Below, one piece after another: positions 6,596 to 23,052 of a DNA stretch of 23,052 bases (position 1 is the stretch's first letter; each line of letters opens with the position of its first letter). The translations under genes and the position numbers were made by a program. The stretch spans positions 1 to 23,052 of the IMG/VR virus record IMGVR_UViG_3300017739_000122. The stretch is one strand, 5' to 3'. This DNA comes from a virus. The notes beneath the pieces were generated by a model. The model was not told the origin of the DNA and did not search any database. It worked only from the letters and a program-made list of their open reading frames with translations.

Positions 6596-8091
6596 TAGTA
6601 GTATTCCTTTTCAATTCGCGGTAATGGGTCTTCTTTGTAATCATCAGGTAAGCTTACAAAACCTCCCTGTCTAAAACGCATTAACGCCTGTGTTGTACTG
6701 TCCACCAAATCGTCGTGATCTCCGTACGGAAATGATGCACATTCTTCTATAACCTCATCCGCGAACTCTTCGTCGGGCGCCCAAATCATTCCGGACTCGA
6801 ACATCGGAGCGACGCTATTGACCCTAGAAAATTTGTCCTGTCCTTTACTAGGAGTGAAATTTATAACAGGTATTCCAATCTTTCTCAACTCATAAGTTAA
6901 GGGTTGGCCAGATGCTTTTGCTTCTATGATAACGGTATCAGGTTTCCAATATTTGTATTGTTCTAACGCTTCTTTACGTAATTCAGGAAACTCTAATCGT
7001 TCTTTGTGTGCATCTAATAATATTAAATGAGCAGCAGAGTCTTCGTTTGGATAAAAAACTCCCCAGGTTGTAATGGCAGAATAATCCGCTGTTTCCTTTT
7101 TACTAAAGGCTGTGTCATAACTTTGTATAATATGTTGTAGAGGTGGTATGGATGACTTCTCCCAAACGTTCCACCATTCACGTTTAATAATACTACCTTC
7201 TTCTGCCGTTGGATTCTGCATCCATTGTGCATTCCATTTGCCCGCGGTCAGCGAAGCTTTAACACCTTCTAACTCTGACTTCTTCCAATACTGAGGCCAG
7301 ATCGGTTTACCTGATGGCATAATCGCTGGGAACTCTACAATCTCCCATTTATCTGCTTTAATATTTTTTTGTGATGCTAATAGTTTAGAAGTTAAATCTT
7401 TTACACTCCATCGTGTCATAACCACAACGATTGCTCCGCCGGGTTGCAAACGTTGACGTGGACCTGATGTATACCATTCGTAAGCACGTTCCAGCGCTTC
7501 GGGATTCATTGCATCTTGCTCCGAGTGTGGGTCATCAATAATCAATAAGTCCGCACCACGGCCCGTGATTGCAGAGCCAACACCGGCTGCATAATATTCA
7601 CCGCCCTGTTCTGTTTCCCATTTACCCGCGGCTTGTGAATCTTCTCTTAACTTTGTGCCGAAGATGTTTTGGTATTCGGGGCTATCAATTAATGTTTTAG
7701 CTTTACGACCGAATCGTATAGCGAGCTCCGTGGTGTGTGTTGTTTGGATTATTTTTAAATTTGGTTTACGGCCCACCATCCACGCAGGAAGTAAGAAGGA
7801 ACTAAATTCACTCTTCGTGTGCCGCGGTGGCATATTAATAATTAATCTTTTAATTTTACCTTTTGCAATCTTATCAAACTTATCTGCAATTTCTTTGTGA
7901 TGTCTACCTTCAATAAACTCTGGCCACATCTCTTTAACGAATGCCATAAAACTATTATTAATTTTATGTATCTTTTCTTTTTTCTCGAATGTTCTTTTAA
8001 GCAGATGTAGGTGTTGTAGCTCTTCGTATGTTAAATGTTCCGTGAAGTCGGCTCTAAAACAACGTAGGATTTCTTCCGGTAAACCGTTCAT
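6595..8091 (-). CDS. terL: Terminase large subunit (ATPase and nuclease)
   Basis: A 498-aa DNA-packaging motor. The ATPase half has a Walker A-like loop MPPRHTKSE (87-95), adenine-side words HTTELAIRFGRK (119-130), Walker B LLIIDDP (182-188) and the coupling motif VVVMTRW (222-228). The C-terminal RNase H-like nuclease has QSYDTAFS (D326), VIIEAKASG (E390) and YGDHDDLVD (acidic cluster 457-464), the expected metal ligands. The enzyme cuts concatemeric DNA and pumps it through the portal. It heads the leftward late block and is followed with a one-base overlap by the 418-aa gene. The first ATG (8091) has no clear Shine-Dalgarno site. Unusually, the small-subunit gene is 3 kb away on the other strand. 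Confidence 0.95.
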   Translation of the reverse strand: MNGLPEEILRCFRADFTEHLTYEELQHLHLLKRTFEKKEKIHKINNSFMAFVKEMWPEFIEGRHHKEIADKFDKIAKGKIKRLIINMPPRHTKSEFSSFLLPAWMVGRKPNLKIIQTTHTTELAIRFGRKAKTLIDSPEYQNIFGTKLREDSQAAGKWETEQGGEYYAAGVGSAITGRGADLLIIDDPHSEQDAMNPEALERAYEWYTSGPRQRLQPGGAIVVVMTRWSVKDLTSKLLASQKNIKADKWEIVEFPAIMPSGKPIWPQYWKKSELEGVKASLTAGKWNAQWMQNPTAEEGSIIKREWWNVWEKSSIPPLQHIIQSYDTAFSKKETADYSAITTWGVFYPNEDSAAHLILLDAHKERLEFPELRKEALEQYKYWKPDTVIIEAKASGQPLTYELRKIGIPVINFTPSKGQDKFSRVNSVAPMFESGMIWAPDEEFADEVIEECASFPYGDHDDLVDSTTQALMRFRQGGFVSLPDDYKEDPLPRIEKEYY

Positions 8092-8207
8092 AAAAAATTT
8101 TTGCAGAATTTTTTGGGATTCTGTTTTCCTCTCGTTTCAAATTTATCACAGATTTAAGACTAAAACAAACTGTATAGGTGTATATGTTGGGACCCCTATC
8201 TGTTTTG

Positions 8208-8234
8208 GGGTGGGTGGGCCCATTGTTCGCGAGC
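8208..8234 (+). repeat. 27-bp G-rich element, copy 1
   Basis: Fits GGGNGGGTGGGCCC, eight bases, CRAGC, here ending in CGAGC. It is part of a near-duplicate with copy 2: both continue GGGCCCAT, one variable base, GTTC, one variable base, CGAGC. It is preceded by TGGGACCCC at 8189-8196 and by a pairing ACCCC/GGGGT. Confidence 0.8.
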
Positions 8235-8261
8235 TTATATCGGTTTTGGCTGGGACCCCTC

Positions 8262-8288
8262 GGGTGGGTGGGCCCATAGTTCACGAGC
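8262..8288 (+). repeat. 27-bp G-rich element, copy 2
   Basis: Fits GGGNGGGTGGGCCC, eight bases, CRAGC, here ending in CGAGC. It starts 54 bp after the start of copy 1. Together with the GGG of the upstream TGGGACCCC it gives four G-triplets with loops of about 7, 1 and 1 bases, a potential G-quadruplex. A TTGACAAG word follows 40 bp after its end. Confidence 0.8.
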
Positions 8289-8347
8289 ACACAAACCCAT
8301 TTTGGTCAGTGTTGCATATTTACAATATTGACAAGGTTTAATTCATA

Positions 8348-8503
8348 TTAGTTAAACCTCGTTTGGTTATCGATTGACTGTTCGTGCTTTCTTTTTTCAC
8401 TGGCCTTCTTTGCAATCTTAACAGCCAACGCCCCGTGTTTATCTAAAAAAGATTTAGCACATAAAGTTCTATAATCTTTTATAAGTTTATCTATATAAGT
8501 CAT
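8348..8503 (-). CDS. Small basic protein, unknown function
   Basis: A 51-aa frame starting at ATG 8503 with a good ribosome binding site (AGAAAGGA, six bases, ATG) and a near-consensus promoter directly upstream (TTGACA, 17 bases, TAAAAT). The product is rich in Lys/Ala/Arg (KIAKKASEKRKHE at about 29-41) and probably helical. No domain is recognised. The transcript would run towards terL and might read through into the late block, so this could be the first gene of that unit. The dedicated promoter and operator-like palindrome support a real, regulated gene. Confidence 0.65.
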   Translation of the reverse strand: MTYIDKLIKDYRTLCAKSFLDKHGALAVKIAKKASEKRKHEQSIDNQTRFN

Positions 8504-8518
8504 TTATTATCCTTTCTA

Positions 8519-8548
8519 TGTATGGGATTTTATATTAAATCCCATACA
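8519..8548. promoter_or_regulatory. Perfect inverted repeat over a promoter (probable operator)
   Basis: The arms TGTATGGGATTT (8519-8530) and AAATCCCATACA (8537-8548) are exact reverse complements of 12 bp separated by six bases. The palindrome covers the -10 box and most of the spacer of the promoter for the 51-aa gene, so a dimeric regulator bound here would block polymerase. The half-site word TATGGGA recurs at four other promoter regions in the window. Confidence 0.7.
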
Positions 8549-8555
8549 TTGTCAA
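8527..8555 (-). promoter_or_regulatory. Sigma70-type promoter for the 51-aa gene
   Basis: Reading leftward, TTGACA (8555-8550), a 17-base spacer and TAAAAT (8532-8527), followed at once by CCCATA. The consensus -35 and optimal spacing make it a convincing host-polymerase promoter. Confidence 0.75.
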
Positions 8556-8559
8556 CCCT

Positions 8560-9108
8560 TTATTGTTTAAAGTTTGGAAGTGCCTGTAAATCTTGGTTCC
8601 ACCTTAAACCAATCTTTTGAGATACCTTATCAAGTGCGATTGCAAGTGCATCAGGCGTTCCACTTTCCATAACAACATCTTTAGCTTTTTGTTTAAGCTC
8701 TTTAAGTTGTTTTAGTTTAGCGCCTTCAGGTCTCTTCTCAATCTCACGTTGTGCAAGATCAGACGCCCACTCTCGCAGTTGATCTTGACAATCAGACAGA
8801 GTTATTTCACGTATGCTTCTATTATATTCTCTAAAATTATAATTAAGCTCCGCGTCTTTTGGTTTTTTCTTATTAAAAAAAGTTAATGCGGTTGCTTGCG
8901 CCTCTGCTAACTTTTTTTCTGCCTCGGCAAACTTACTGATAATTGTATCTGCGCCAATCTTTTTAGATAGCTTTGATACAGCTTTGTCAGTTGCTTCAGT
9001 CTTAAATTGTTTGACCAATAATTCTTGATCTTTAATCATTGGTTCAAACTGCCTATCAACCTTCTCTTTAAAATGCTCTAGTTGATACTTGGTCATTGTT
9101 TTACTCAT
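8560..9108 (-). CDS. Coiled-coil protein, unknown function
   Basis: A 182-aa soluble protein, mostly helical and highly charged, beginning MSKTMTKYQLEHFKEKVD and ending WNQDLQALPNFKQ. Heptad-like stretches occur at about 35-75 and 130-150, and the middle has the word CQDQLREWASDLAQREIE. I recall similar proteins in marine phages but know no function. It has its own promoter (9136-9163) and an AAAGGA ribosome binding site six bases before the ATG, and lies just upstream of the promoter for the 51-aa gene. The regulatory logic matches the neighbouring TATGGGA-bearing promoters, so it is probably expressed at the same stage. Confidence 0.75.
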   Translation of the reverse strand: MSKTMTKYQLEHFKEKVDRQFEPMIKDQELLVKQFKTEATDKAVSKLSKKIGADTIISKFAEAEKKLAEAQATALTFFNKKKPKDAELNYNFREYNRSIREITLSDCQDQLREWASDLAQREIEKRPEGAKLKQLKELKQKAKDVVMESGTPDALAIALDKVSQKIGLRWNQDLQALPNFKQ

Positions 9109-9127
9109 TTGTTATCCTTTCTTTTAT

Positions 9128-9163
9128 TATGGGATTTTATAACACAATAGAAATATAAGTCAA
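9128..9163 (-). promoter_or_regulatory. Promoter with TATGGGA motif for the 182-aa gene
   Basis: Reading leftward, TTGACT (9163-9158), 16 bases, TATAAA (9141-9136), then ATCCCATA. The TATGGGA word (9128-9134 on the + strand) sits just downstream of the -10, as it does at the 51-aa gene and at the 16.07 kb promoter. There is no second palindrome arm here. Confidence 0.65.
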
Positions 9164-9185
9164 TCTTTATTTTTATTTATTTTAG

Positions 9186-9212
9186 GGGAGGGTGGGCCCA
9201 CGGCCCACAAGC
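9186..9212 (+). repeat. 27-bp G-rich element, copy 3
   Basis: Fits GGGNGGGTGGGCCC, eight bases, CRAGC, here ending in CAAGC. It contains a hairpin TGGGCC-CAC-GGCCCA (9193-9207). It lies in the divergent gap between the 182-aa gene and the rightward pair, 29 bp before the -35 box of the rightward promoter. Confidence 0.8.
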
Positions 9213-9240
9213 ATAGGTTGAATAAAAATTAATTATTTAT

Positions 9241-9270
9241 TTGACAAGATATGGGATATTATGCTATTAA
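9241..9270 (+). promoter_or_regulatory. Promoter with TATGGGA motif for the 9291-9630 gene pair
   Basis: TTGACA (9241-9246), 18 bases, TATTAA (9265-9270), then AAGAAAGGA and the ATG at 9291. The spacer contains ATATGGGATATTATG (9249-9263), a 15-base word found again, identical, at 9914-9928. Confidence 0.65.
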
Positions 9271-9290
9271 TAATTTAAGAAAGGATAAAT

Positions 9291-9443
9291 ATGGAAAATA
9301 TAATAACAAAAGAAAAAATAGAACAGCTAGAAAGGTTTAAGGGCCTTATTCAAATAATGGATAAGATGTCAAACAATATGCAATTACTAGCTAATAGAAT
9401 AGTTACACTAGAGCAGGAAGTGAAGAGGTTAAAAGATGAGTAA
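9291..9443 (+). CDS. Short coiled-coil protein, unknown function
   Basis: A 50-aa frame with ribosome binding site AAAGGA six bases before the ATG, and a promoter 20 bp upstream. The product is a single amphipathic helix with Leu/Ile heptads (IEQLERFKGLIQIMDKMS, then LANRIVTLEQEVKRLKDE), so a dimerising coiled coil or leucine-zipper-like partner protein is likely. The stop overlaps the next gene's start by eight bases, indicating coupled translation. No domain is recognised. Confidence 0.7.
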   Translation: MENIITKEKIEQLERFKGLIQIMDKMSNNMQLLANRIVTLEQEVKRLKDE

Positions 9444-9630
9444 TCCTCAAATTGATAGCTTTGAAATAGGTTTATTCGAGCAATACCTCGAGGACCTAGA
9501 AACAAAATATTTTCAGGGTGTCATTACGTGGGGTCCTGATAAAGGTGAGCCATACTATTCCAAGACACAAAGTGAAATGGAAACAGAGGCAGAAAAAAAA
9601 GTAAAAGAATTTATGGATCGCAATTCATAA
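9436..9630 (+). CDS. Small acidic protein, unknown function
   Basis: A 64-aa acidic protein (FEQYLEDLETKYFQGVITWG, then KVKEFMDRNS) encoded in overlap with the coiled-coil gene before it. It has no membrane segment, Cys motif or known domain. The stop is followed within ten bases by the structured region starting at 9639, so it is the last gene of this small rightward unit. It may act with the preceding coiled-coil protein; this is inferred from coupling only. Confidence 0.65.
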   Translation: MSNPQIDSFEIGLFEQYLEDLETKYFQGVITWGPDKGEPYYSKTQSEMETEAEKKVKEFMDRNS

Positions 9631-9638
9631 AAGATCTT

Positions 9639-9855
9639 GCGCCCTTCGGGGCGCCTGATCCCTGGACAGAGCAACGTCAGACTAGGGCTAGCCTAAGTCG
9701 TATGAGCACGCAAGTCTCGACAACGTTGGTTTCGAACCTTAATGGTCTGTCCTGGGATCAGCTTACTACCGTACACCGGTCCGGACGACGAGAAGGAAGA
9801 CTCCGGACTGCTGGTCTAATTTATCCTTGAACCGGTGCGCGGGCGCAAGCCCGCG
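9639..9855 (+). ncRNA. Candidate structured RNA (unknown class)
   Basis: A GC-rich stretch with no gene but dense nested complementarity. In order: GCGCCC-UUCG-GGGCGC (9639-9654, UUCG tetraloop); a long closing helix GATCCC/GGGATC plus GGACAGA/TCTGTCC with one T-T mismatch (9657-9670 with 9746-9759); inside it CAACGT/ACGTTG (9672-9677 with 9723-9728), a hairpin GAC-TAGG/CCTA-(A)-GTC (9680-9699), a weak GAG/CTC hairpin (9704-9718) and GGTT-TCG-AACC (9728-9738). Then comes a second domain with CACCGG/CCGGTG (9774-9779 with 9832-9837) enclosing TCCGGA/TCCGGA (9780-9785 with 9802-9807), and a perfect CGCGGGC-GCAA-GCCCGCG hairpin (9838-9855, GNRA tetraloop). UUCG and GNRA loops on the + strand argue for a folded RNA rather than chance palindromes. 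It matches no class I know. It could be a phage ncRNA or a leader controlling the GP88-like gene. Confidence 0.6.
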
Positions 9856-9862
9856 AGCGGGG

Positions 9863-9889
9863 GGGAGGGTGGGCCCGGAGGGCCCAAGC
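9863..9889 (+). repeat. 27-bp G-rich element, copy 4
   Basis: Fits GGGNGGGTGGGCCC, eight bases, CRAGC, here ending in CAAGC and extended upstream to seven Gs. It contains a perfect 7-bp hairpin TGGGCCC-gga-GGGCCCA (9870-9886). The final CAAGC directly abuts the -35 box TTGACA of the GP88-like gene. Confidence 0.8.
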
Positions 9890-9918
9890 TTGACAAGTAG
9901 AATTAAAAATGTTATATG
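9890..9918 (+). promoter_or_regulatory. Promoter of the GP88-like gene
   Basis: TTGACA (9890-9895), 17 bases, TATATG (9913-9918). The start codon follows at 9926, so transcription would begin at or just before the ATG. The -10 overlaps ATATGGGATATTATG (9914-9928), which also includes the ATG itself. Confidence 0.65.
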
Positions 9919-9925
9919 GGATATT

Positions 9926-10531
9926 ATGAGAATTGAGAAAGCAAAAGAAATTACAGGATCATTAAGCAAGCCGAGCAAGATGCCGGGCCACGCGTATGGT
10001 TTACCAGCTAAAGAATGCAAGACCGGGGGCAAGCTTCAAAATGTTAAGGGCTCGACGTGTTACGGCTGTTATGCTTTAAAAGGTTGTTACGTTTTCAAAG
10101 TTGTACAAGCTGCACAATATAAAAGATTAAAAGCAATACGCCATCCATTATGGGTCAAAGCGATGGCGATGCAAATCAACAGTAAGAAAACAAAATTTTT
10201 TAGATGGCACGATTCCGGAGATGTGCAAGATCTTAAACACTTAGCAAAAATTTTTGAAGTTGCTAGACGCTCCCCGGATGTTAATCACTGGTTACCGACT
10301 CGAGAAGCTTGGACGGTTAAGTATCAGGACAGAGCGCCAGCAAATCTAAAATTAATTTTTTCTATGCCGATGGTCAATCAGGAAGCGGCGGGCAAGTTTA
10401 AATATACCAGCACCGTGGTGACTGATCCTAAAAAAGCAACCTGCCCGGCCCCGAACCAAGACAATGAATGCAAGGACTGTCGAGCGTGTTGGGATAAGAA
10501 AATTAAAAACGTTGCCTATCTGGCCCACTAG
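9926..10531 (+). CDS. GP88-like phage protein with two cysteine clusters
   Basis: I chose ATG 9926 because conserved sequence begins there and a promoter overlaps the longer frame, which opens at 9827 inside the structured, G-rich region. The 201-aa product has the layout I recall for the phage GP88 family: LSKPSKMPGHAYGLPAKECK near the N-terminus, a first Cys cluster (C31, C45, C48, C54 in CYGCYALKGCY), RWHDSGD (93-99), WLPTREAW (122-129) and a C-terminal Cys cluster (C173, C182, C185, C188 in CKDCRACW). Eight Cys in two groups suggest metal or iron-sulfur binding, and H95/D96/D99 could be catalytic. The biochemical role of the family is not known to me. Base composition is more GC-rich than flanking genes. 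It lies between two copies of the 27-bp element. Confidence 0.75.
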   Translation: MRIEKAKEITGSLSKPSKMPGHAYGLPAKECKTGGKLQNVKGSTCYGCYALKGCYVFKVVQAAQYKRLKAIRHPLWVKAMAMQINSKKTKFFRWHDSGDVQDLKHLAKIFEVARRSPDVNHWLPTREAWTVKYQDRAPANLKLIFSMPMVNQEAAGKFKYTSTVVTDPKKATCPAPNQDNECKDCRACWDKKIKNVAYLAH

Positions 10532-10537
10532 TTTAGA

Positions 10538-10711
10538 ATGATTCTAATGTGGCATCATCCAAAATATTACAAAGAGCTCAAGCGGATCGCGAAGGAAGAA
10601 GCGGACAAGCGAGCAAGCGAGCAAGCGCGCAGGCGGGCGGGTGGGCCCGAGGATCGCAAGCGAACGAGCAGCGATCAAGCGTCCGGGGAGCGAGCAAGCA
10701 AGCAGCGTTGA
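10538..10711 (+). CDS. Small Arg/Lys/Ala-rich protein overlapping a repeat region
   Basis: A 57-aa frame six bases after the GP88-like stop, with in-frame ATGs at 10538 and 10547. It starts with a protein-like segment, MWHHPKYYKELKRIAKEEAD, then becomes Arg/Ala/Ser-rich where it crosses the AGCGAGCA repeats and copy 5 of the G-rich element. No Shine-Dalgarno site is visible, but coupling to the preceding gene is possible. Its last 37 bases overlap the convergent VRR-NUC gene. The first 20 residues look genuine; the rest may be non-coding DNA read through. A different forward frame over the same bases (10549-10794) looks less protein-like. Confidence 0.45.
   Translation: MILMWHHPKYYKELKRIAKEEADKRASEQARRRAGGPEDRKRTSSDQASGERASKQR
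10608..10699 (+). repeat. GC-rich short-repeat tract (AGCGAGCAAGC)
   Basis: AGCGAGCAAGC occurs at 10608-10618, overlapping at 10616-10626 (an 8-bp tandem AGCGAGCA), and again at 10689-10699. An inverted pair GATCGC/GCGATC lies at 10652-10657 and 10671-10676. The CAAGC core is the same word as the tail of the 27-bp element, and copy 5 of that element lies inside this tract. Confidence 0.55.
10635..10661 (+). repeat. 27-bp G-rich element, copy 5
   Basis: Fits GGGNGGGTGGGCCC, eight bases, CRAGC, here ending in CAAGC. Unlike the others it falls within a possible reading frame (10538-10711) and is not directly followed by a TTGACA box. Confidence 0.75.
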
Positions 10712-11052
10712 ATGTGGTCCCAATCATTGATTGCGAGGGAAGGTGTTTCGCGGTGATCAAGCAGAAGACCGGGGATCGAGCTAGACTCGTATAATTTTAC
10801 AAGCTTAAGGGAAGGCTGGTTAACAAGGATAAAGTTACGTTTTTTTCTAGTTAAGTGAAACAATTTTTGATGTGGACTGAACGATATTTTAGGTGACCGA
10901 ATCACCTTAAGCTCAACCATAAAGAATCCACAAGAATCGTGGTATCCCAACAAATCTGGAACACCAAAGGATGCCCAAGACTCCAGTCTGGTCCACTGAA
11001 TTAGGGGTGTTTTCTTCTTAACTAATTGCCAAAATTTGCTCTCTTGTTTCAC
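10675..11052 (-). CDS. VRR-NUC / Holliday-resolvase-like PD-(D/E)XK nuclease
   Basis: A 125-aa protein starting at GTG (11052); an in-frame stop lies five codons upstream and no ATG is available. The active-site pattern is clear: GVPDLLGY (D33), FFMVELKV (E47, K49) and SPHQKLFH (Q62), the D...ExK...HQ order of the VRR-NUC and related phage nuclease families. The domain is the minimal size for stand-alone phage versions, which act on branched or flapped DNA in recombination and replication. It is convergent with the 57-aa frame and divergent from terS. The gap between it and terS carries two back-to-back promoters and AAAACGTAA repeats. Its -10 box lies only about ten bases from the GTG. Confidence 0.8.
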   Translation of the reverse strand: MKQESKFWQLVKKKTPLIQWTRLESWASFGVPDLLGYHDSCGFFMVELKVIRSPKISFSPHQKLFHLTRKKRNFILVNQPSLKLVKLYESSSIPGLLLDHRETPSLAINDWDHIQRCLLARSPDA

Positions 11053-11061
11053 CGCAAGTTT

Positions 11062-11090
11062 ATACTATATATGTAATAAAACGTAAGCAA
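11062..11090 (-). promoter_or_regulatory. Promoter for the VRR-NUC gene
   Basis: Reading leftward, TTGCTT (11090-11085), 17 bases, TAGTAT (11067-11062), with the GTG at 11052. The -35 box overlaps or abuts the two AAAACGTAAG repeats. Confidence 0.45.
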
Positions 11091-11142
11091 AAAACGTAAG
11101 TTATTTTGCTAAATAACCATTTATTTGATATAAAAACGTAAT
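11078..11142 (+). repeat. AAAACGTAA direct repeats between divergent genes
   Basis: AAAACGTAAG at 11078-11087 and 11091-11100, and AAAACGTAAT at 11133-11142, directly before terS. The same decamer AAAACGTAAG occurs at 12396-12405 beside the TGTGCCA cluster. The placement in a divergent promoter region fits binding sites for a regulator. Confidence 0.6.
11106..11134 (+). promoter_or_regulatory. Promoter of terS
   Basis: TTGCTA (11106-11111), 17 bases, TATAAA (11129-11134). The ATG is at 11144, so the leader would be only about 2-3 bases. No Shine-Dalgarno site is present. Confidence 0.55.
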
Positions 11143-11143
11143 T

Positions 11144-11674
11144 ATGCAGACAATAACACCTCGAAAAAAGGGAAGACCACCAGCTCTCACACAAAAACAG
11201 AAGAGATTTGCTGAATTATATGTATGGGACCGGGGTAAAAAGAGTCTAAGTCAGTGTGCATTTGAAGCTGGGTACAAGAACAGACCATCTGAAACGGCAT
11301 CTGATTTAAGAAATCCAAGAAAGTACCCGCTAGTTTGTGAACACATAAGAAAGCTAGAGAAAGAACAAGAGAACAGATTTAGAATAAACAAATCAATTCA
11401 TATGCAAGACTTAGGACATATTAAGAATGAATCTATGAAGCAACCCACTACTCTGTCTGTGGCTCAAAGGGCTGAGGAAAACAGAGGTAAAGTAATGGGC
11501 TACTATAAAAACGAAAACATCAATACTAACGTCAATGTAAATGTAGACTCTATGACTAGAGAAGATCTAATCAAAGAATTTGATAAATTTTACAGTGATA
11601 GAATGAAAGATGTTACGCCTGATAAATCAAAACTAAAAGCATCAGAAGTAAAACAAGACCCTGAATCCGATTAG
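11144..11674 (+). CDS. terS: Terminase small subunit
   Basis: A 176-aa protein. Residues 6-75 match the Terminase_2 type small-subunit pattern: a basic RKKGRPP tail, then LTQKQKRFAELYVWDRG, AFEAGYKNRPSETASDLRNP and PLVCEHIRKLEKE, i.e. a helix-turn-helix DNA-binding region of the kind that selects phage DNA for packaging. Residues 80-130 are helical and include AQRAEENRGKVMGYY. The C-terminal part has MTREDLIKEFDKFYSDRM and a charged tail. It forms a ring that loads TerL on the packaging site. It is alone on the + strand, with its own promoter overlapping AAAACGTAA repeats, and terL is more than 3 kb away on the opposite strand. A terminator-like hairpin follows. Confidence 0.85.
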   Translation: MQTITPRKKGRPPALTQKQKRFAELYVWDRGKKSLSQCAFEAGYKNRPSETASDLRNPRKYPLVCEHIRKLEKEQENRFRINKSIHMQDLGHIKNESMKQPTTLSVAQRAEENRGKVMGYYKNENINTNVNVNVDSMTREDLIKEFDKFYSDRMKDVTPDKSKLKASEVKQDPESD

Positions 11675-11829
11675 TCATTTCGTTTGCTCGGCAATACCAT
11701 TCGTGTATTTTGTTTGCCGATCTTTTTATTATTTCCATATAATACTCCTTGTGAGTTTGGACCCTTCCTCGGGGGAAGTTGGCTCCATTTTACGTTAGGC
11801 ATATTCTTAGTCAAGGTTTTATTTTTCAT
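11671..11829 (-). CDS. Small conserved-type phage protein with PPRKGPNSQG motif
   Basis: A 52-aa basic protein whose core KWSQLPPRKGPNSQGV resembles a short motif I recall in many small marine-phage proteins; the function is unknown. It starts at ATG 11829, overlapping the end of the preceding 26-aa gene by 11 bases. Its stop overlaps the terS stop in a tail-to-tail arrangement by four bases. The terS terminator hairpin lies inside its C-terminal codons. It is the last gene of the leftward operon. Confidence 0.65.
   Translation of the reverse strand: MKNKTLTKNMPNVKWSQLPPRKGPNSQGVLYGNNKKIGKQNTRMVLPSKRND
11689..11727 (+). terminator. Rho-independent-like terminator of terS
   Basis: The stem CGGCAA/TTGCCG (11689-11694 with 11714-11719), with an inner helix that can extend through TAC/GTA, is followed by ATCTTTTTATTATTT. 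It starts 15 bases after the terS stop. The interrupted stem makes it imperfect. Confidence 0.5.
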
Positions 11830-11899
11830 AGTTCCACATCAATAATAGCAGAGTAATAAACCCATAGATAGCTAAAACAATACTAATAGATAAAAACAT
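11819..11899 (-). CDS. 26-aa single-helix membrane micropeptide
   Basis: An ATG-started 26-codon frame encoding almost only hydrophobic residues (LSISIVLAIYGFITLLLLMW) and ending NYEK. That is one membrane helix with a short tail. It fills the gap between the 96-aa and 52-aa genes with a five-base spacing upstream and an 11-base overlap downstream. Its size makes it uncertain. If expressed it would insert in the inner membrane, as small phage exclusion or lysis-modulating peptides do; that role is speculation. Confidence 0.45.
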   Translation of the reverse strand: MFLSISIVLAIYGFITLLLLMWNYEK

Positions 11900-11904
11900 T
11901 ATCG

Positions 11905-12195
11905 TTATCTTTCGTTAATTTTTTCCATTTTAATTATACACCCAACAGGAAATACATTTCTATCACTAAATAATTCATCATTCTCTTCGTAAGATGCAAA
12001 CGTCCAGATATATTTTCTGTTCTTATCAAATACGTAAGCGTGAGTTATCATTGTAGATGGTATCAAACTATATGAATCAAAGTGTGTAGCGTGCCCAGAA
12101 TCGCCCGTTGGATCGATCCAGGTAATTTTATAATAGTAATACCTCTTCTTGTTAATAACAACAGATTTGTATTTTGATTTTTTAGGACGTCTCAT
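11905..12195 (-). CDS. Conserved-type small marine-phage protein, unknown function
   Basis: A 96-aa protein with a basic N-terminus (RRPKKSKYKS) and then a beta-rich body containing YYKITWIDPTGDSGHATHFDS, MITHAYVFDKNRKYIWTFASY and FSDRNVFPVGCIIKME. The pattern of alternating aromatic and polar residues suggests a small beta-barrel. I recall the words GDSGHAT and DRNVFP from marine-phage proteins without assigned function. It lies downstream of the TGTGCCA cluster, so that cluster is well placed to control it and the two genes after it. Confidence 0.7.
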   Translation of the reverse strand: MRRPKKSKYKSVVINKKRYYYYKITWIDPTGDSGHATHFDSYSLIPSTMITHAYVFDKNRKYIWTFASYEENDELFSDRNVFPVGCIIKMEKINER

Positions 12196-12278
12196 ATTGT
12201 ATCTTATAATGTATAGTAGAATATTTAGGCAAAAAAGTTTTCAAAAAAACAAAAAGGGTCGCGCACGCAGAGTACATC

Positions 12279-12510
12279 TGTGCCAAGCCATAATTGCAAA
12301 AAAGCCAGTGTTTACACCATTTGTGCCAGGGTGTGCCAAGAGAAATTGATGTCGTGGCACAGCTATTCGTCAATAATACCAACGATAATAGCTCAAAAAC
12401 GTAAGTGTGCCACCTGTGCCACCAGTTTTTTTTGATGACTGAAAAAAAAATTTGCCCTAGAATTCCACTATGCATTGGCACACTACCTCGATTTGGGCAC
12501 ATTTGTGCCA
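12279..12510. repeat. TGTGCCA site cluster in a 378-bp intergenic gap
   Basis: The gap 12196-12573 has no credible gene. It contains eight exact copies of TGTGCCA or its complement: forward at 12279, 12322, 12332, 12406, 12415 and 12504; reverse at 12355 and 12476. A near-match GGGCACA at 12495 makes an inverted pair with the site at 12504. Spacings of 10 and 9 bp within pairs place sites on one DNA face. One site directly follows an AAAACGTAAG decamer (12396-12405). Just after the deformylase stop an inverted repeat GCCCTAC/GTAGGGC (12536-12542 with 12558-12564) could be a hairpin but lacks a T-run. Iterons of a replication origin or a multi-site operator are the two best readings. Confidence 0.7.
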
Positions 12511-12573
12511 TTTTTTATAATCTTTTTGGTTCCTGGCCCTACAATGTCAAATTTTGCGTAGGGCAACCAGTCT

Positions 12574-13137
12574 TTACGGATTAGATTTAACTCTAAAATC
12601 AGTGTCGACCATTGTTTGGGCGTTATGTTTGTCCCTATTATACTCACCTTTTTCATAATCTATACACAATTTACCCTCTAGGTGGTCCATTTCGTGTTGA
12701 ATACATCTGGCCTCTAGATTGTAAAATGTTTTTGTATGTTCTTCTCCTTCCTCATCTTTGTAGTTTAGAGTGATTCTAATATGTCTTTTGACTTCACCCT
12801 GCTTGCCGGGTGCAGATAAACACCCTTCAAAGTCTGTAATTGTTTCCTCACTATTTTTTACTATCGTGGGATTTATAAATACTTGTGGCTTGCCTTGGTA
12901 TCTTGTGCAATCCATCGTAAACATACGCACATCATACCCAACTTGAACAGCAGCCAAACCTATGCCATTGTGTTGGTACATAGCCCTAGTCATCCAGGTG
13001 ATAAGTCTTTTGGTTTTATCATCTAGTGGAAAAGCTACGTCTTTACTCACTTTTCTTAAAAATACGTCAGGATATTTGACCAATTCTATACTAACCAAGG
13101 TGCCTCCCAGTCTCCCGGTTGGCACCTCGTTGCGCAT
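12574..13137 (-). CDS. def: Peptide deformylase
   Basis: The three deformylase motifs are present and in order: GIGLAAVQVG (58-67), EGCLSAPG (104-111, metal ligand C106) and QHEMDHLEG (147-155, ligands H148 and H152, catalytic E149). The enzyme removes the formyl group from new N-terminal methionines. Phage copies are known auxiliary genes in marine phages and may favour synthesis of phage or host proteins during infection. The ATG at 13137 has no ribosome binding site. A TTG at 13098, five bases after GGGAGG, would give a 174-aa protein starting (M)VSIELVKYPD, a more typical deformylase N-terminus, so that start may be the real one. A 7-bp inverted repeat (13098-13104 with 13121-13127) would bury that ribosome binding site. 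The gene heads directly into the TGTGCCA gap. Confidence 0.92.
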   Translation of the reverse strand: MRNEVPTGRLGGTLVSIELVKYPDVFLRKVSKDVAFPLDDKTKRLITWMTRAMYQHNGIGLAAVQVGYDVRMFTMDCTRYQGKPQVFINPTIVKNSEETITDFEGCLSAPGKQGEVKRHIRITLNYKDEEGEEHTKTFYNLEARCIQHEMDHLEGKLCIDYEKGEYNRDKHNAQTMVDTDFRVKSNP

Positions 13138-13154
13138 TATCCATTATGGATTCG

Positions 13155-13403
13155 TTAAATACCATAGTTCTTTTTGGGTCCTGTAAAACTGATGGACCTA
13201 TGTCTTTGTAAATTTTCGTGTTTCAAAACAATCCTTGCTGGTTCTGGTGCACCAATGAGTTTATTTTTTTCTAATGCAATAAATCTTACTTCTTCGAGAT
13301 AGCCGTCTTTGGTTTCTAAATATATTGGACAGTCAGATATGTTTGTGCCCTTCTCACCATCAGTGAACTTTCCGAGTATTTGTTGCAAGTCTCTTACTCT
13401 CAT
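13155..13403 (-). CDS. Small phage protein, unknown function
   Basis: An 82-aa protein with a perfect AGGAGG ribosome binding site four bases before ATG 13403. The N-terminus (MRVRDLQQILGKFTDGEKG) resembles small phage proteins of the type MKVKDLIEKL followed by a beta-rich body (CPIYLETKDGYLEEVRFIAL), which are widespread and uncharacterised. It ends 17 bases before the first deformylase start. It overlaps out of frame with the 58-aa gene upstream. Confidence 0.7.
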   Translation of the reverse strand: MRVRDLQQILGKFTDGEKGTNISDCPIYLETKDGYLEEVRFIALEKNKLIGAPEPARIVLKHENLQRHRSISFTGPKKNYGI

Positions 13404-13536
13404 CTATCCTCCTCACTATTGATTCTAATAACTCATACCATTTTTCTTTCCACATTTCCTTCATTGGTCCTGTAGTTTTATTATAGGTATTTGCTATATT
13501 ATTTAGTCTTCTCATTTCTAATTTTATAGAACTCAT
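13360..13536 (-). CDS. 58-aa basic protein overlapping both neighbours
   Basis: An ATG at 13536 preceded by AAGGAGG and four bases, inside the end of the exonuclease gene. The frame runs through the gap and 44 bases into the 82-aa gene. The product has KTTGPMKEMWKEKWYELLES, a Trp-containing amphipathic segment with a feel familiar from small marine-phage proteins, and a basic tail. The gap between the exonuclease and the 82-aa gene is otherwise empty, and the ribosome binding site is excellent, which supports it. A later start at 13515 is possible. Confidence 0.55.
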   Translation of the reverse strand: MSSIKLEMRRLNNIANTYNKTTGPMKEMWKEKWYELLESIVRRIDESKRLATNTRKVH

Positions 13537-14188
13537 CCACCCTCCTTAAAAAGTTATGTTTATATTTTTTGAACTCACTACCTTCAACCACAAACTCTTG
13601 GTAATAATTATCTTTGCTACACATCATAATCACACCCTTCGTTATTTGAGTGTTGAATAAAATGTTATGTGCCATTGCATACGCAGATAGCTGCATAAAA
13701 TAATCATCAATCCATTCTCTCTTTTTTGGTTTATTAGTTTGCTTGAAGTCTATAATTGCATCAGATCCTTTATGTATACCTACTAAATCTGTTTGGCCTG
13801 CGTATAGGCCTGGGTAGTATAAAGTACATTCTGTGCCGTAATATTCTGTAACATTGGATAAACCACTTTGAATAACTTGAGATGCCATATTATGTGCTTG
13901 TTTACCTACATTTGTTTCATCGAGGTAACCTTCTTCAAGAATATATTTTTCTAAGATCTTGTGCATAGCTGTGCCTCTTGCGCCTGATTCATCCACGATC
14001 CGCGTCGCTTCGGCCTCGCCTTTCGAAGCTCTCCAGTTGGCCAACGCTTCGCGCTTCTCGGCTGATTGCGTGGCATCTAATATTGTCGTAACGCTGGGTA
14101 ATTTTTCTTTATCAAAGACATAATGACGTTTACCATCTATTTTTTCTCGTTGAGTCTTCGGGTATCTATAACTATTATTTTTTTTCAT
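13499..14188 (-). CDS. PD-(D/E)XK exonuclease, Cas4/RecB-like
   Basis: A 229-aa protein with the RecB/Cas4-type nuclease signature: PSVTTIL at the N-terminus, GARGTAMHKILE (H76), the acidic word YGTECTLYYPGLYAGQTDLVG (E120, D134), AIIDFKQTNKPK (D147, K149) and the QxxxY motif QLSAYAMAH (Q166, Y170). There are no Cys ligands for an iron-sulfur cluster as in true Cas4. Phage members usually act as 5'-3' exonucleases in recombination or host DNA degradation. It lies between the 36-aa lipoprotein and the 58-aa gene, overlapping both, within the leftward nucleic-acid operon. Confidence 0.85.
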   Translation of the reverse strand: MKKNNSYRYPKTQREKIDGKRHYVFDKEKLPSVTTILDATQSAEKREALANWRASKGEAEATRIVDESGARGTAMHKILEKYILEEGYLDETNVGKQAHNMASQVIQSGLSNVTEYYGTECTLYYPGLYAGQTDLVGIHKGSDAIIDFKQTNKPKKREWIDDYFMQLSAYAMAHNILFNTQITKGVIMMCSKDNYYQEFVVEGSEFKKYKHNFLRRVDEFYKIRNEKTK

Positions 14189-15268: not shown

Positions 15269-15450
15269 TGCAGCCTCGCTGACGCTGCTAATTCCTGCAG
15301 CTCTTCTAACGTTGGTTCTTCTAATGGAAGCTCACCTTCTGATTTACATTTATCACATTGAACAACCATATTCTTTGCGATTTTATTATATCCATTACCC
15401 TTACATTCAGGACAGATATACTTGTGATTAGCTACTTTTATCTTTTCCAT
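15265..15450 (-). CDS. Small zinc-binding protein with CxxC pairs
   Basis: A 61-aa protein with two Cys pairs: YICPECKGNGY (C13, C16) and VVQCDKCKSEGE (C32, C35), like one DnaJ-type CxxCxGxG zinc unit, followed by an acidic helix (EEPTLEELQELAASARLQ). It likely binds one zinc ion and mediates protein or nucleic-acid contact. The start overlaps the ribbon-helix-helix gene by 23 bases, and the stop overlaps the next GTG. Confidence 0.7.
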   Translation of the reverse strand: MEKIKVANHKYICPECKGNGYNKIAKNMVVQCDKCKSEGELPLEEPTLEELQELAASARLQ

Positions 15451-15601
15451 TTTTCTTTACACCTTTGTTATCTAAAAAAAATCTAATAAGTCTTCCAATC
15501 ATTTTAGATCTTGTTCTATTTGTCTTATTTGCAAGTACACCCAGTTGTTCCCAATCTTCGCGTGGAACAGAAAGCGACTTGTATTTAGCTGGATCAGCCA
15601 T
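15428..15601 (-). CDS. Ribbon-helix-helix-like DNA-binding protein
   Basis: A 57-aa protein, MADPAKYKSLSVPREDWEQL followed by GVLANKTNRTRSKMIGRLIR and a short basic tail. A beta-strand KSLSVP, then helix, TNRTRSK turn and helix is the Arc/MetJ/CopG outline. Such proteins bind DNA operators as dimers, usually palindromes or direct repeats. It is one of the first genes after the 16.07 kb promoter, so it is a candidate ligand for that promoter's palindrome or for the TATGGGA, AAAACGTAAG or TGTGCCA sites. The assignment to any site is inference. Confidence 0.7.
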   Translation of the reverse strand: MADPAKYKSLSVPREDWEQLGVLANKTNRTRSKMIGRLIRFFLDNKGVKKNGKDKSS

Positions 15602-16421: not shown

Positions 16422-16561
16422 TATTTTCCTTGTCCCCGGTAAAGCTTAAAATTTTTTCGTTTCTTTTTGTTCATTTTTTGCAAGCTTGGTCTACGTCCAA
16501 TACTTGTTTTGTTAAAGATAGGTTCGTGTGGTGTAAAATTTTTAAAGTTTTGTTTCGCCAT
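16421..16561 (-). CDS. Small basic protein with KTSIGRRP motif
   Basis: A 46-aa very basic protein with the words FNKTSIGRRPSLQKMNKKKR and a YRGQG ending. This combination is, from memory, one of the commonest tiny proteins of marine phages; its function is unknown. ATG 16561 lies within the end of the zinc-ribbon gene upstream (20-base overlap), and its stop overlaps the next start by one base. Confidence 0.7.
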   Translation of the reverse strand: MAKQNFKNFTPHEPIFNKTSIGRRPSLQKMNKKKRKNFKLYRGQGK

Positions 16562-16766
16562 CGTCGTCTACCCATTCTTTTACAAAAGGTTTTGCACCTT
16601 TTGGAGATGTTATTGCTGGTAAATAAGTTATCTTACCATTAACGTGCTGCTCCAAATCAACACCACAATTCATACACCTAAATAATTCTTTGGATAGACC
16701 TATTAATAAAGTAAATTCATTACACGTTGGGCATTTGCCATTTACAATTTCAGCAGTTAATCTCAT
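16542..16766 (-). CDS. Zinc-ribbon protein
   Basis: A 74-aa protein from ATG 16766 (a GTG one codon earlier is also possible; either overlaps the upstream stop). Its CPTC pair is at about residues 12-15 and its CMNC pair at about 31-34, each in a beta-turn context typical of a zinc ribbon, followed by DLEQHVNGKITYLP and an acidic tail. Small phage zinc ribbons often bind nucleic acid or RNA polymerase. No specific partner can be named. Confidence 0.7.
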   Translation of the reverse strand: MRLTAEIVNGKCPTCNEFTLLIGLSKELFRCMNCGVDLEQHVNGKITYLPAITSPKGAKPFVKEWVDDDGETKL

Positions 16767-21876: not shown

Positions 21877-21973
21877 ATGCTTGTTTAACGCACTCCTTTG
21901 CTTGTTTAATTTGTTTGTGATCCCATAACCATTTAGCGTGTCTTATTAAAATTATATTTTTTTCGCTACGCAT
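21782..21973 (-). CDS. 63-aa protein overlapping the helicase start
   Basis: ATG 21973 overlaps the primase stop as TAATG. The first 32 residues (MRSEKNIILIRHAKWLWDHK, then QAKECVKQAYEND) occupy the gap before the helicase and look like a helical protein. The remaining 31 residues are read out of frame through the first 95 bases of the helicase gene, including its ATP-binding loop. The arrangement means the helicase ATG lies inside this gene, so translation could be coupled by backtracking. The start is convincing; the functional importance of the C-terminal half is unclear. Confidence 0.5.
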   Translation of the reverse strand: MRSEKNIILIRHAKWLWDHKQIKQAKECVKQAYENDNFRSTRNWQNNNVVKSSRPIYSRRNKA

Positions 21974-23052
21974 TAAAAGTTTTCCTCTTGGTATGGTATT
22001 TTAGAAACAGAAGCTTCTGTCTGTTTCATTGTTTTTATTTTAATTAATCTTGGTTGTTGTTTTTTAATTCTAATTCTTTCTTCATCTACAAATACTTCTA
22101 ATTGTTTTATTAAATTACCTGTTTGATTCTTATCTTTTTCCCAATGATTTCTTTTGCAAAAATTATAAAAGTCTTCCATTCTAAAATATGTAAATTCTCT
22201 TTTCTCATCTGTGTATGGTAGTTTGTTTAGTATATCATCCCAAGTTCTTGCTGATTGTCTATTCGTTGTCCAGTCTTGTAAAAGTCCTGTGAGTTCATTG
22301 ACTGGGTCTAAAGACTCTAGTGGCTCAACCTCCTGAAGGCCAGTCATCATTGGTTTTAAAAAATGTTGTTTCCAATCTTGTGGTTTAGGTACAGGTACAA
22401 CTAAATTTGCTTGATCTAAACACGCTAATGCAAATAGCTGCGGACTATAAAGTTGTTCTGATTTTAATTGTATTCTTTTTTTATCTACATTTAAAAACCA
22501 CTCTGGTGGTTTAGATGCATACTTTGTAAGACTACCTAACACTGGCATCTCTTCTTCACCAAAGCCTACACCAAATCTTTTTGTTCTACATAAACCAGAC
22601 TGACATACTGCATTGATTGGTGCATCCTTGCATCTATATTTGTCATAACCTTTTCTGTTTACTGATTTAATTAATTGTTGCACCTCACTATTACTTAGTG
22701 GTGGGTCCATATATTTTAAATTTGCTCCAACAATTTCATCTTCCCAAGTATCTGGTTTAGCTTGTTTGTAATACACAGCAATATTAAACAATGCATTGTT
22801 CCTGGAGCCTTGTCCAAAACCTGTTGCTGCAAGTTTATTTAGACAAGGTGGTCCCATAGGAAATGCTTCTTCTATTTTTTTCTCTTCTGTTTTGATTGCT
22901 TCAACTTGTTCTTTTGTGCAAGCCCAAACATCATAGAGCTTATAAAATTCTTCAAGTGTACAACCGGCGCCATTATCGTTGATAGCATAACGTAGTCCTT
23001 TCATTTCATTGTAGTAGGGTAGATTTAAAAAGTTACCTGTGTCCCCACGTTC
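21973..23052 (-). CDS. Primase C-terminal (PriCT-like) part, cut by right edge
   Basis: The frame is open to the right edge (359 codons before the stop), and the residues before the internal Met at 23004 (GDTGNFLNLPYYNEMKGLRY) belong to the protein, so its start lies outside the window. The visible part has the word NLPYY typical of the end of a primase-polymerase domain and an EEFYKLYDVW helix. The PriCT-like core is TGFGQGSRNNALFNIAVYYK, PDTWEDEIVGANLKYMDPPL and EVQQLIKSVNRKGYDKYRCK. A Cys group (C125, C134, C139 counted from the Met at 23004, with RTKRFGVG) is of the kind seen in marine-phage primases. A helical charged C-terminus follows. It would lay primers for the leftward replication genes that follow. 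Confidence 0.8.
   Translation of the reverse strand, partial: ERGDTGNFLNLPYYNEMKGLRYAINDNGAGCTLEEFYKLYDVWACTKEQVEAIKTEEKKIEEAFPMGPPCLNKLAATGFGQGSRNNALFNIAVYYKQAKPDTWEDEIVGANLKYMDPPLSNSEVQQLIKSVNRKGYDKYRCKDAPINAVCQSGLCRTKRFGVGFGEEEMPVLGSLTKYASKPPEWFLNVDKKRIQLKSEQLYSPQLFALACLDQANLVVPVPKPQDWKQHFLKPMMTGLQEVEPLESLDPVNELTGLLQDWTTNRQSARTWDDILNKLPYTDEKREFTYFRMEDFYNFCKRNHWEKDKNQTGNLIKQLEVFVDEERIRIKKQQPRLIKIKTMKQTEASVSKIPYQEENF

Follow-up and report, generated by a model that had tools for sequence, protein, structure and literature searches.

What function does a dense cluster of the heptamer TGTGCCA serve in a pelagiphage genome, and which protein reads it? The DNA analysed here (the window, meaning the whole stretch of 23,052 nucleotides) is a 23-kb phage fragment. 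Among named phages, the closest to it is 023Pt_psg01 (MW574966, a complete genome of 59.8 kb), with 82% nucleotide identity over half of the window, and HTVC027P and HTVC023P are remoter relatives; by sequence comparison, the source of the window is an HTVC023P-type pelagiphage near 023Pt_psg01. In 023Pt_psg01, the genes are, in order, those for an AEP primase, a UvrD-like helicase, PolA, several small proteins, an exonuclease and a deformylase, followed by a 57-aa ORF, the array, a 96-aa ORF, terS (on the other strand) and terL. The array is located between the replication/exonuclease/deformylase block and terS. In the literature searched, we found neither a replication origin for the HTVC023P-type pelagiphages, which are SAR11 viruses and form a widespread group, nor an earlier description of this array.

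The TGTGCCA cluster

A sequence-only reading of the window had reported, within 12279-12510, eight exact TGTGCCA/TGGCACA sites plus a near-match, in both orientations and with pairs at 9-10 bp. All of these are present in the sequence, as follows.

12279..12285, plus strand: outer site, closest to the 96-aa gene, exact
12322..12328, plus strand: core site, pair member, exact
12332..12338, plus strand: core site, pair member, 10 bp from the 12322 site, exact
12355..12361, minus strand: core site, inverted, exact
12406..12412, plus strand: core site, pair member, exact
12415..12421, plus strand: core site, pair member, 9 bp from the 12406 site, exact
12476..12482, minus strand: core site, inverted, exact
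12495..12501, minus strand: near-match TGTGCCC within the 57-aa ORF
12504..12510, plus strand: site in the 3' part of the 57-aa ORF, exact
12483..12656, minus strand: 57-aa ORF overlapping the array edge, with a counterpart in 023Pt_psg01 at 13429-13629
11905..12195, minus strand: 96-aa ORF adjoining the array, without family match, used as anchor for the search described below

The whole window carries 13 exact copies of the word, versus 2.0 expected. In 200 first-order Markov resamplings, TGTGCCA occurred at most three times per 232 bp, against eight in the real sequence, and no 7-mer with at least three G/C exceeded four copies per 232 bp. The cluster had also been placed in a gap with no gene. 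This holds in part: the conserved 57-aa ORF overlaps the last two sites (12495 and 12504), and the gap is therefore not gene-free. Because of this overlap, the site at 12504 may be partly a coding coincidence. The array consists of short direct repeats about one helical turn apart, mostly non-coding and conserved, as in iteron-type arrays.

Conservation and geometry of the array

The array was found at the same place in 023Pt_psg01 and in 93 regions from IMG/VR. In 023Pt_psg01, seven sites follow the order and spacing seen in the window. The IMG/VR search, anchored on the 96-aa gene, yielded 133 distinct upstream regions, 93 of which carry TGTGCCA arrays. Six core sites follow one arrangement in 84 of these 93 regions: read towards the 96-aa gene, it is inverted site, pair, inverted site and pair, with spacings of 60-62, 8-9, 49-52, 14 or 23, and 9-10 bp; only the fourth spacing has two distinct values, which lie 9 bp apart. 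A DNA-pattern scan for further TGTGCCA arrays returned short contigs only. The 96-aa protein also occurs in other marine phages that have no array and a different gene context (L153, L156, L163-L168).

Scaffold elements around the core sites

Several further elements accompany the core sites, and together with them they make up a scaffold.

12203..12233, minus strand: right arm of an enclosing inverted repeat (TTTGCCTAAATATTCTACTATACAT) with a sigma-70-like promoter, from sequence and repeat comparison
12257..12269, minus strand: G/C-rich element (TGCGTGCGCGACC on the minus strand), from sequence
12374..12383, minus strand: GTTGGTATTA element, a conserved block of the spacer that separates a pair from an inverted site
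12426..12453, no strand assigned: tract rich in A/T (T8...A9) that separates core sites and is a candidate for the unwinding element, from sequence
12452..12475, plus strand: left arm of the enclosing inverted repeat (TTGCCCTAGAATTCCACTATGCAT), from sequence and repeat comparison

Of the 93 TGTGCCA arrays, 89 contain the TTGGTAT/ATACCAA block within the GTTGGTATTA element, and most of the other word classes have it as well. The interval from the first core site to the tandem pair averages 81% A+T (84 arrays), so that the array has the neighbouring A/T-rich region of an iteron origin. The inverted repeat of about 25 bp (12203-12233 and 12452-12475) surrounds the array, and its right arm coincides with the sigma-70-like promoter of the 96-aa gene (TTGCCT-18-TATAAG). 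The two arms resemble each other more within genomes than between them (mean score 14.5 versus 13.26, sd 0.24, 5000 permutations), and they drift together inside genomes. The G/C-rich element resembles CGCGCG in 94 of 126 arrays, and both it and an A/T-rich tract persist where the word has changed.

Direct repeats that come in pairs, spaced by about 10 bp and lying beside A/T-rich DNA, also resemble the arm-type sites of a tyrosine-integrase attP. However, the annotations of HTVC027P, HTVC023P and the first 30 kb of 023Pt_psg01 contain no integrase, and a lytic life style is given for HTVC027P (PMC12753301); on these annotations, an attP is extremely improbable.

Exchange of the repeated word between lineages

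At this place, 17 word classes were found including TGTGCCA, although some of the 16 others rest on one region and are uncertain. The alternative words include TGGCAAG or GGCAAGG, TGGTACA, TGTCTCA, GATCACC, GGTTACA, TGTTCCA and others. HTVC027P carries a TGTTACA/TGTTTCA array at about 14.8 kb, upstream of gp28, and HTVC023P carries a CTAGGAAA array directly upstream of terS. Written in the TGGCACA direction, the words of this clade have TGG(C/T)A in common and vary in their final two positions; CTAGGAA and GATCACC, which belong to distant lineages, do not fit one simple code. Across different words, the flanking proteins reach 98% identity for the 57-aa ORF, 100% for an 82-aa ORF and 96% for the 96-aa ORF. 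Since words differ while flanking identity reaches 98-100%, the word has been exchanged as a cassette, and an array that moves as a cassette must be matched by a cognate reader encoded elsewhere, unless its reader tolerates the word change. A fixed place with changing words is how a cognate pair of site and reader behaves. It is nearly certain, on the sequences compared, that the TGTGCCA cluster is a real, precisely spaced and conserved nucleoprotein site with swapped specificity.

In the GGCAAGG-word phage G021 (L272/L273, 22072-23826), a large C5 cytosine methyltransferase-like gene lies between the gene for a ribbon-helix-helix (RHH) protein and the exonuclease gene; it is shared with G020, which has the same word.

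The deformylase gene (12574-13137) was found in TGTGCCA phages only and in none of the other word classes examined, and some TGTGCCA phages lack it. A TGGCACC near its start had been noted as a partial match to the array word within a hairpin. It is no outlying copy of that word and forms one side of the stem in an RNA hairpin distinct from the array.

13105-13130, minus strand: RNA hairpin over the deformylase start, with a 7-bp stem, a short inner helix and a GAGA-type tip

The stem containing TGGCACC becomes GGGG/CCCC in phages that keep the TGTGCCA array. Among 24 phages, seven of the nine pairs keep pairing through two-sided changes, as where GGTGCC/GGCACC has become GGGG/CCCC. The 3' side of the hairpin includes a Shine-Dalgarno-like GGGAGG. 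These comparisons suggest that the hairpin is likely a translational control element. An Rfam search of window positions 8000-13500 gave no match.

Candidate proteins reading the word

Alignment columns that separate words were compared between TGTGCCA and GGCAAG-type genomes, with the expectation obtained by label shuffling. The primase has six such columns (0.32 expected), and the adjacent helicase also has six (0.12 expected), versus none in PolA, TerS and the 96-aa protein. A downstream VRR-NUC-like nuclease has seven, from very few independent sequences, and fewer word changes are required on the tree of the neighbouring exonuclease than on that of the primase. In several genomes, short repeats of the type GCTTG(C/A/T)G / GCGAGCA form clusters within or close to the VRR-NUC-like gene, for example at 10609-10690 of the window and at about 16500-16625 of HTVC027P.

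Several neighbours were rejected as readers. The 96-aa protein, considered as a self-regulator, is 96% identical across words without word-separating columns. An apparent outlier was the first early gene (Pam3 gp32-like), but its product does not have a DNA-binding look and only one TGTGCCA genome was comparable. The small terminase deserves more attention, as the array might be a packaging site (pac or cos-like) bound by it. Pac sites often lie near terS, and the array is about 0.6 kb from terS in the window and directly upstream of it in HTVC023P. However, TerS proteins are only 31-35% identical within one word and up to 86% identical across words, no column separates the words, and no covariation of TerS with the site was found. 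We therefore regard TerS as rejected and a packaging site as quite unlikely.

RHH repressors read 7-bp heptads, and the RHH protein of these phages was attractive at first for this reason.

15428-15601, minus strand: RHH protein of 57 aa; most of the related genomes examined encode a relative

It was dropped because nearly identical copies accompany different words, namely TGTGCCA in G002 and TGGCAAG in G013; the covariation with the heptad that marks an omega/CopG-type heptad operator was not found in this pair. The RHH reading strand varies by lineage (KYKSLSV, KFKSVSV, KYKNVSL, KYKSLAV), independently of the array word.

The array may also be an operator or enhancer, through which a phage transcription factor other than the primase would control the 96-aa promoter or switch the leftward operon, with diversifying specificity. 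This explanation is retained because the sigma-70-like promoter of the 96-aa gene sits at the array edge, where it is kept across word classes. In addition, HTVC027P has no RNA polymerase of its own and must steer the host enzyme (PMC12753301), a dependence that would suit an operator. However, no word-tracking regulator was found in the early region, where the RHH protein is the one conserved small DNA-binding candidate and does not track the word; an array of more than 200 bp with an A/T-rich tract is large for a single promoter; and the 96-aa gene exists elsewhere without the array. On balance, we consider an operator unlikely, if less so than a packaging site.

The predicted winged helix of the AEP primase

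The AEP primase is the best candidate reader of the word, as judged from word-separating residues and a predicted fold.

21973..23052, minus strand: the 359 C-terminal residues of the AEP primase, whose gene is truncated by the window end; candidate array reader from sequence and predicted fold
22033..22194, minus strand: primase residues 287-340 (of 359), predicted to form a winged-helix domain, pLDDT about 90
22069..22071, minus strand: codon of wing residue Arg328 (023Pt position 483), which tracks the word

The primase family matches AEP-TOTE and PriCT_1 in Pfam, and its N-terminal part gives a profile match to 7nqd and 7nqf, which are CRISPR-associated prim-pols. AlphaFold2, supplied with the 359-aa fragment and 72 diverse relatives, returned a model with a mean pLDDT of 79 and about 90 over residues 287-340, while an earlier prediction with 31 close sequences (pLDDT 44) was unusable. 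The predicted C-terminus runs strand, helix, helix, strand, wing, strand, with Arg328 within the wing. Both the Pfam matches and the predicted fold are those of a primase with a C-terminal winged helix. In Foldseek, the best PDB matches of the model are TcpK with and without oriT DNA (E 0.03-0.05, probability 1.0), where the E-values are weak and the aligned part of the primase model is not reported.

Position 483 is Arg in 12 of 12 TGTGCCA (TGGCACA) genomes and in none of eight genomes with other words, all eight of which carry TGGCAA(G), TGGTAGA or TGGTAA. The residue is Thr in G013, G021 and G067, Asn in G031, Val in G065, Glu in G004, Lys in G062 and Ser in G064. In G006 and G055, the neighbouring wing letters are as in TGGCAAG genomes, yet Arg occurs together with TGTGCCA. 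After correction for phylogeny, the association corresponds to one or two independent changes, and an independent-pairs test was not significant, with too few pairs. The predicted recognition helix is mostly constant, as is the TGG half of the word. Based on this model and the association of the wing residue, we give about even chances that the winged helix of the primase reads the array.

It is possible, although less probable, that the array is an origin read by another protein, either of the host or from a genome part beyond the linked contigs, with the primase link reflecting shared ancestry. The small number of independent changes behind the primase link agrees with this, the helicase separates the words as well as the primase does, and late genes were compared in few genomes. 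On the other hand, the helicase has no recognised sequence-specific DNA-binding domain, and the wing residue would then follow the word in two backgrounds by coincidence.

A candidate replication origin

The sequence-only reading had left the choice between a replication origin and a large operator array. Its absence from close relatives would have refuted such a site; instead, the array is conserved in relatives at the same place. Its anatomy favours the origin, because phased iterons, an A/T-rich tract and an enclosing inverted repeat occur together with a primase as the candidate reader. The GC-skew check that had been suggested did not lend support, as neither GC skew nor third-position skew switches at the array; for third-position skew, this was the result in 023Pt_psg01, HTVC027P, HTVC023P and G001. 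Taken together, we infer that the array is probably a replication origin, and, with slightly less assurance, that it is an iteron-type origin of an HTVC023P-type pelagiphage with the AEP primase as best candidate initiator.

In the proposed mechanism, the 7-bp iterons would stand in a fixed layout of inverted site, A/T-rich tract, tandem pair, GTTGGTATTA block, inverted site and second tandem pair. The phage initiator, most plausibly the AEP primase reading the word with its C-terminal winged helix, would bind the iterons cooperatively, the A/T-rich tract would melt, and the separate phage SF1 helicase and the PolA polymerase would load at the melted tract. The constant recognition helix may read the conserved TGG half of the word and the wing its variable end, such that the wing Arg would specify TGGCACA; a contact between such an Arg and the G opposite C6 would be a classical one.

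More tentatively, pelagiphage origins might fall into specificity types, comparable to incompatibility or immunity groups, which would combine a conserved scaffold with swapped words and matching primase-wing residues; we consider this rather doubtful at present. Origin words would diversify because sharing a word with a co-infecting phage, a satellite or an origin-targeting nuclease would be costly. If so, an arms race at the origin, like that of ICP1 and PLE, would take place in some of the most abundant viruses of the sea. If the origin reading is right, the array provides a landmark for replication mapping in all HTVC023P-type pelagiphages, together with a set of naturally exchanged words on one constant scaffold and a few candidate specificity residues.

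Comparison with known systems

The system nearest in behaviour to the array is the origin and RepA of PLE (PMC8263062, PMC7145576), the satellite of Vibrio cholerae in which the origin iterons and the DNA-binding domain of the initiator (RepA) covary and are swapped (PMC8263062). However, PLE, as a satellite, has three repeats that are semi-palindromic and about 30 bp long, together with a RepA_N domain, whereas the pelagiphages have 7-bp iterons in two orientations and a candidate AEP primase reader proposed from sequence and predicted fold.

In protein architecture, the nearest systems are the alpha protein of phage P4 and the AEP primases with winged helices. The alpha protein carries a fused helicase. 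As cited in later papers, it combines a primase with an origin-binding winged helix, P4 being classed with iteron-type origins (Yeo et al. 2002, via PMC4234260 and PMC10516667), and its primase is of the Toprim type (PMC4234260). In contrast, the pelagiphages have an AEP-type primase and a separate UvrD-like SF1 helicase in place of a Toprim-type primase fused to a helicase, and for these reasons the array does not represent a P4-type system; it would work like P4 alpha without being a member of that type.

TcpK of plasmid pCW3 is a winged-helix protein that binds tandem 9-nt oriT boxes through its beta-wing (PMC6137059). It resembles the primase model in its winged helix and is the best PDB fold match of that model; however, TcpK is a conjugation accessory protein and not a primase, and its boxes are 9 nt with 3-nt linkers.

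The PolpTN2 and PrimQH families share AEP, PriCT-1 and a C-terminal winged helix with the pelagiphage primase, and origin recognition by the recognition helix and wing has been proposed for them (PMC5862659). While that proposal is structural only, the pelagiphages add words that vary in nature, perhaps in step with a wing residue, and so a candidate pair of site and reader in phages; if the origin reading holds, the series of swapped words makes the proposed recognition of origins by AEP-primase winged helices (PMC5862659) directly testable.
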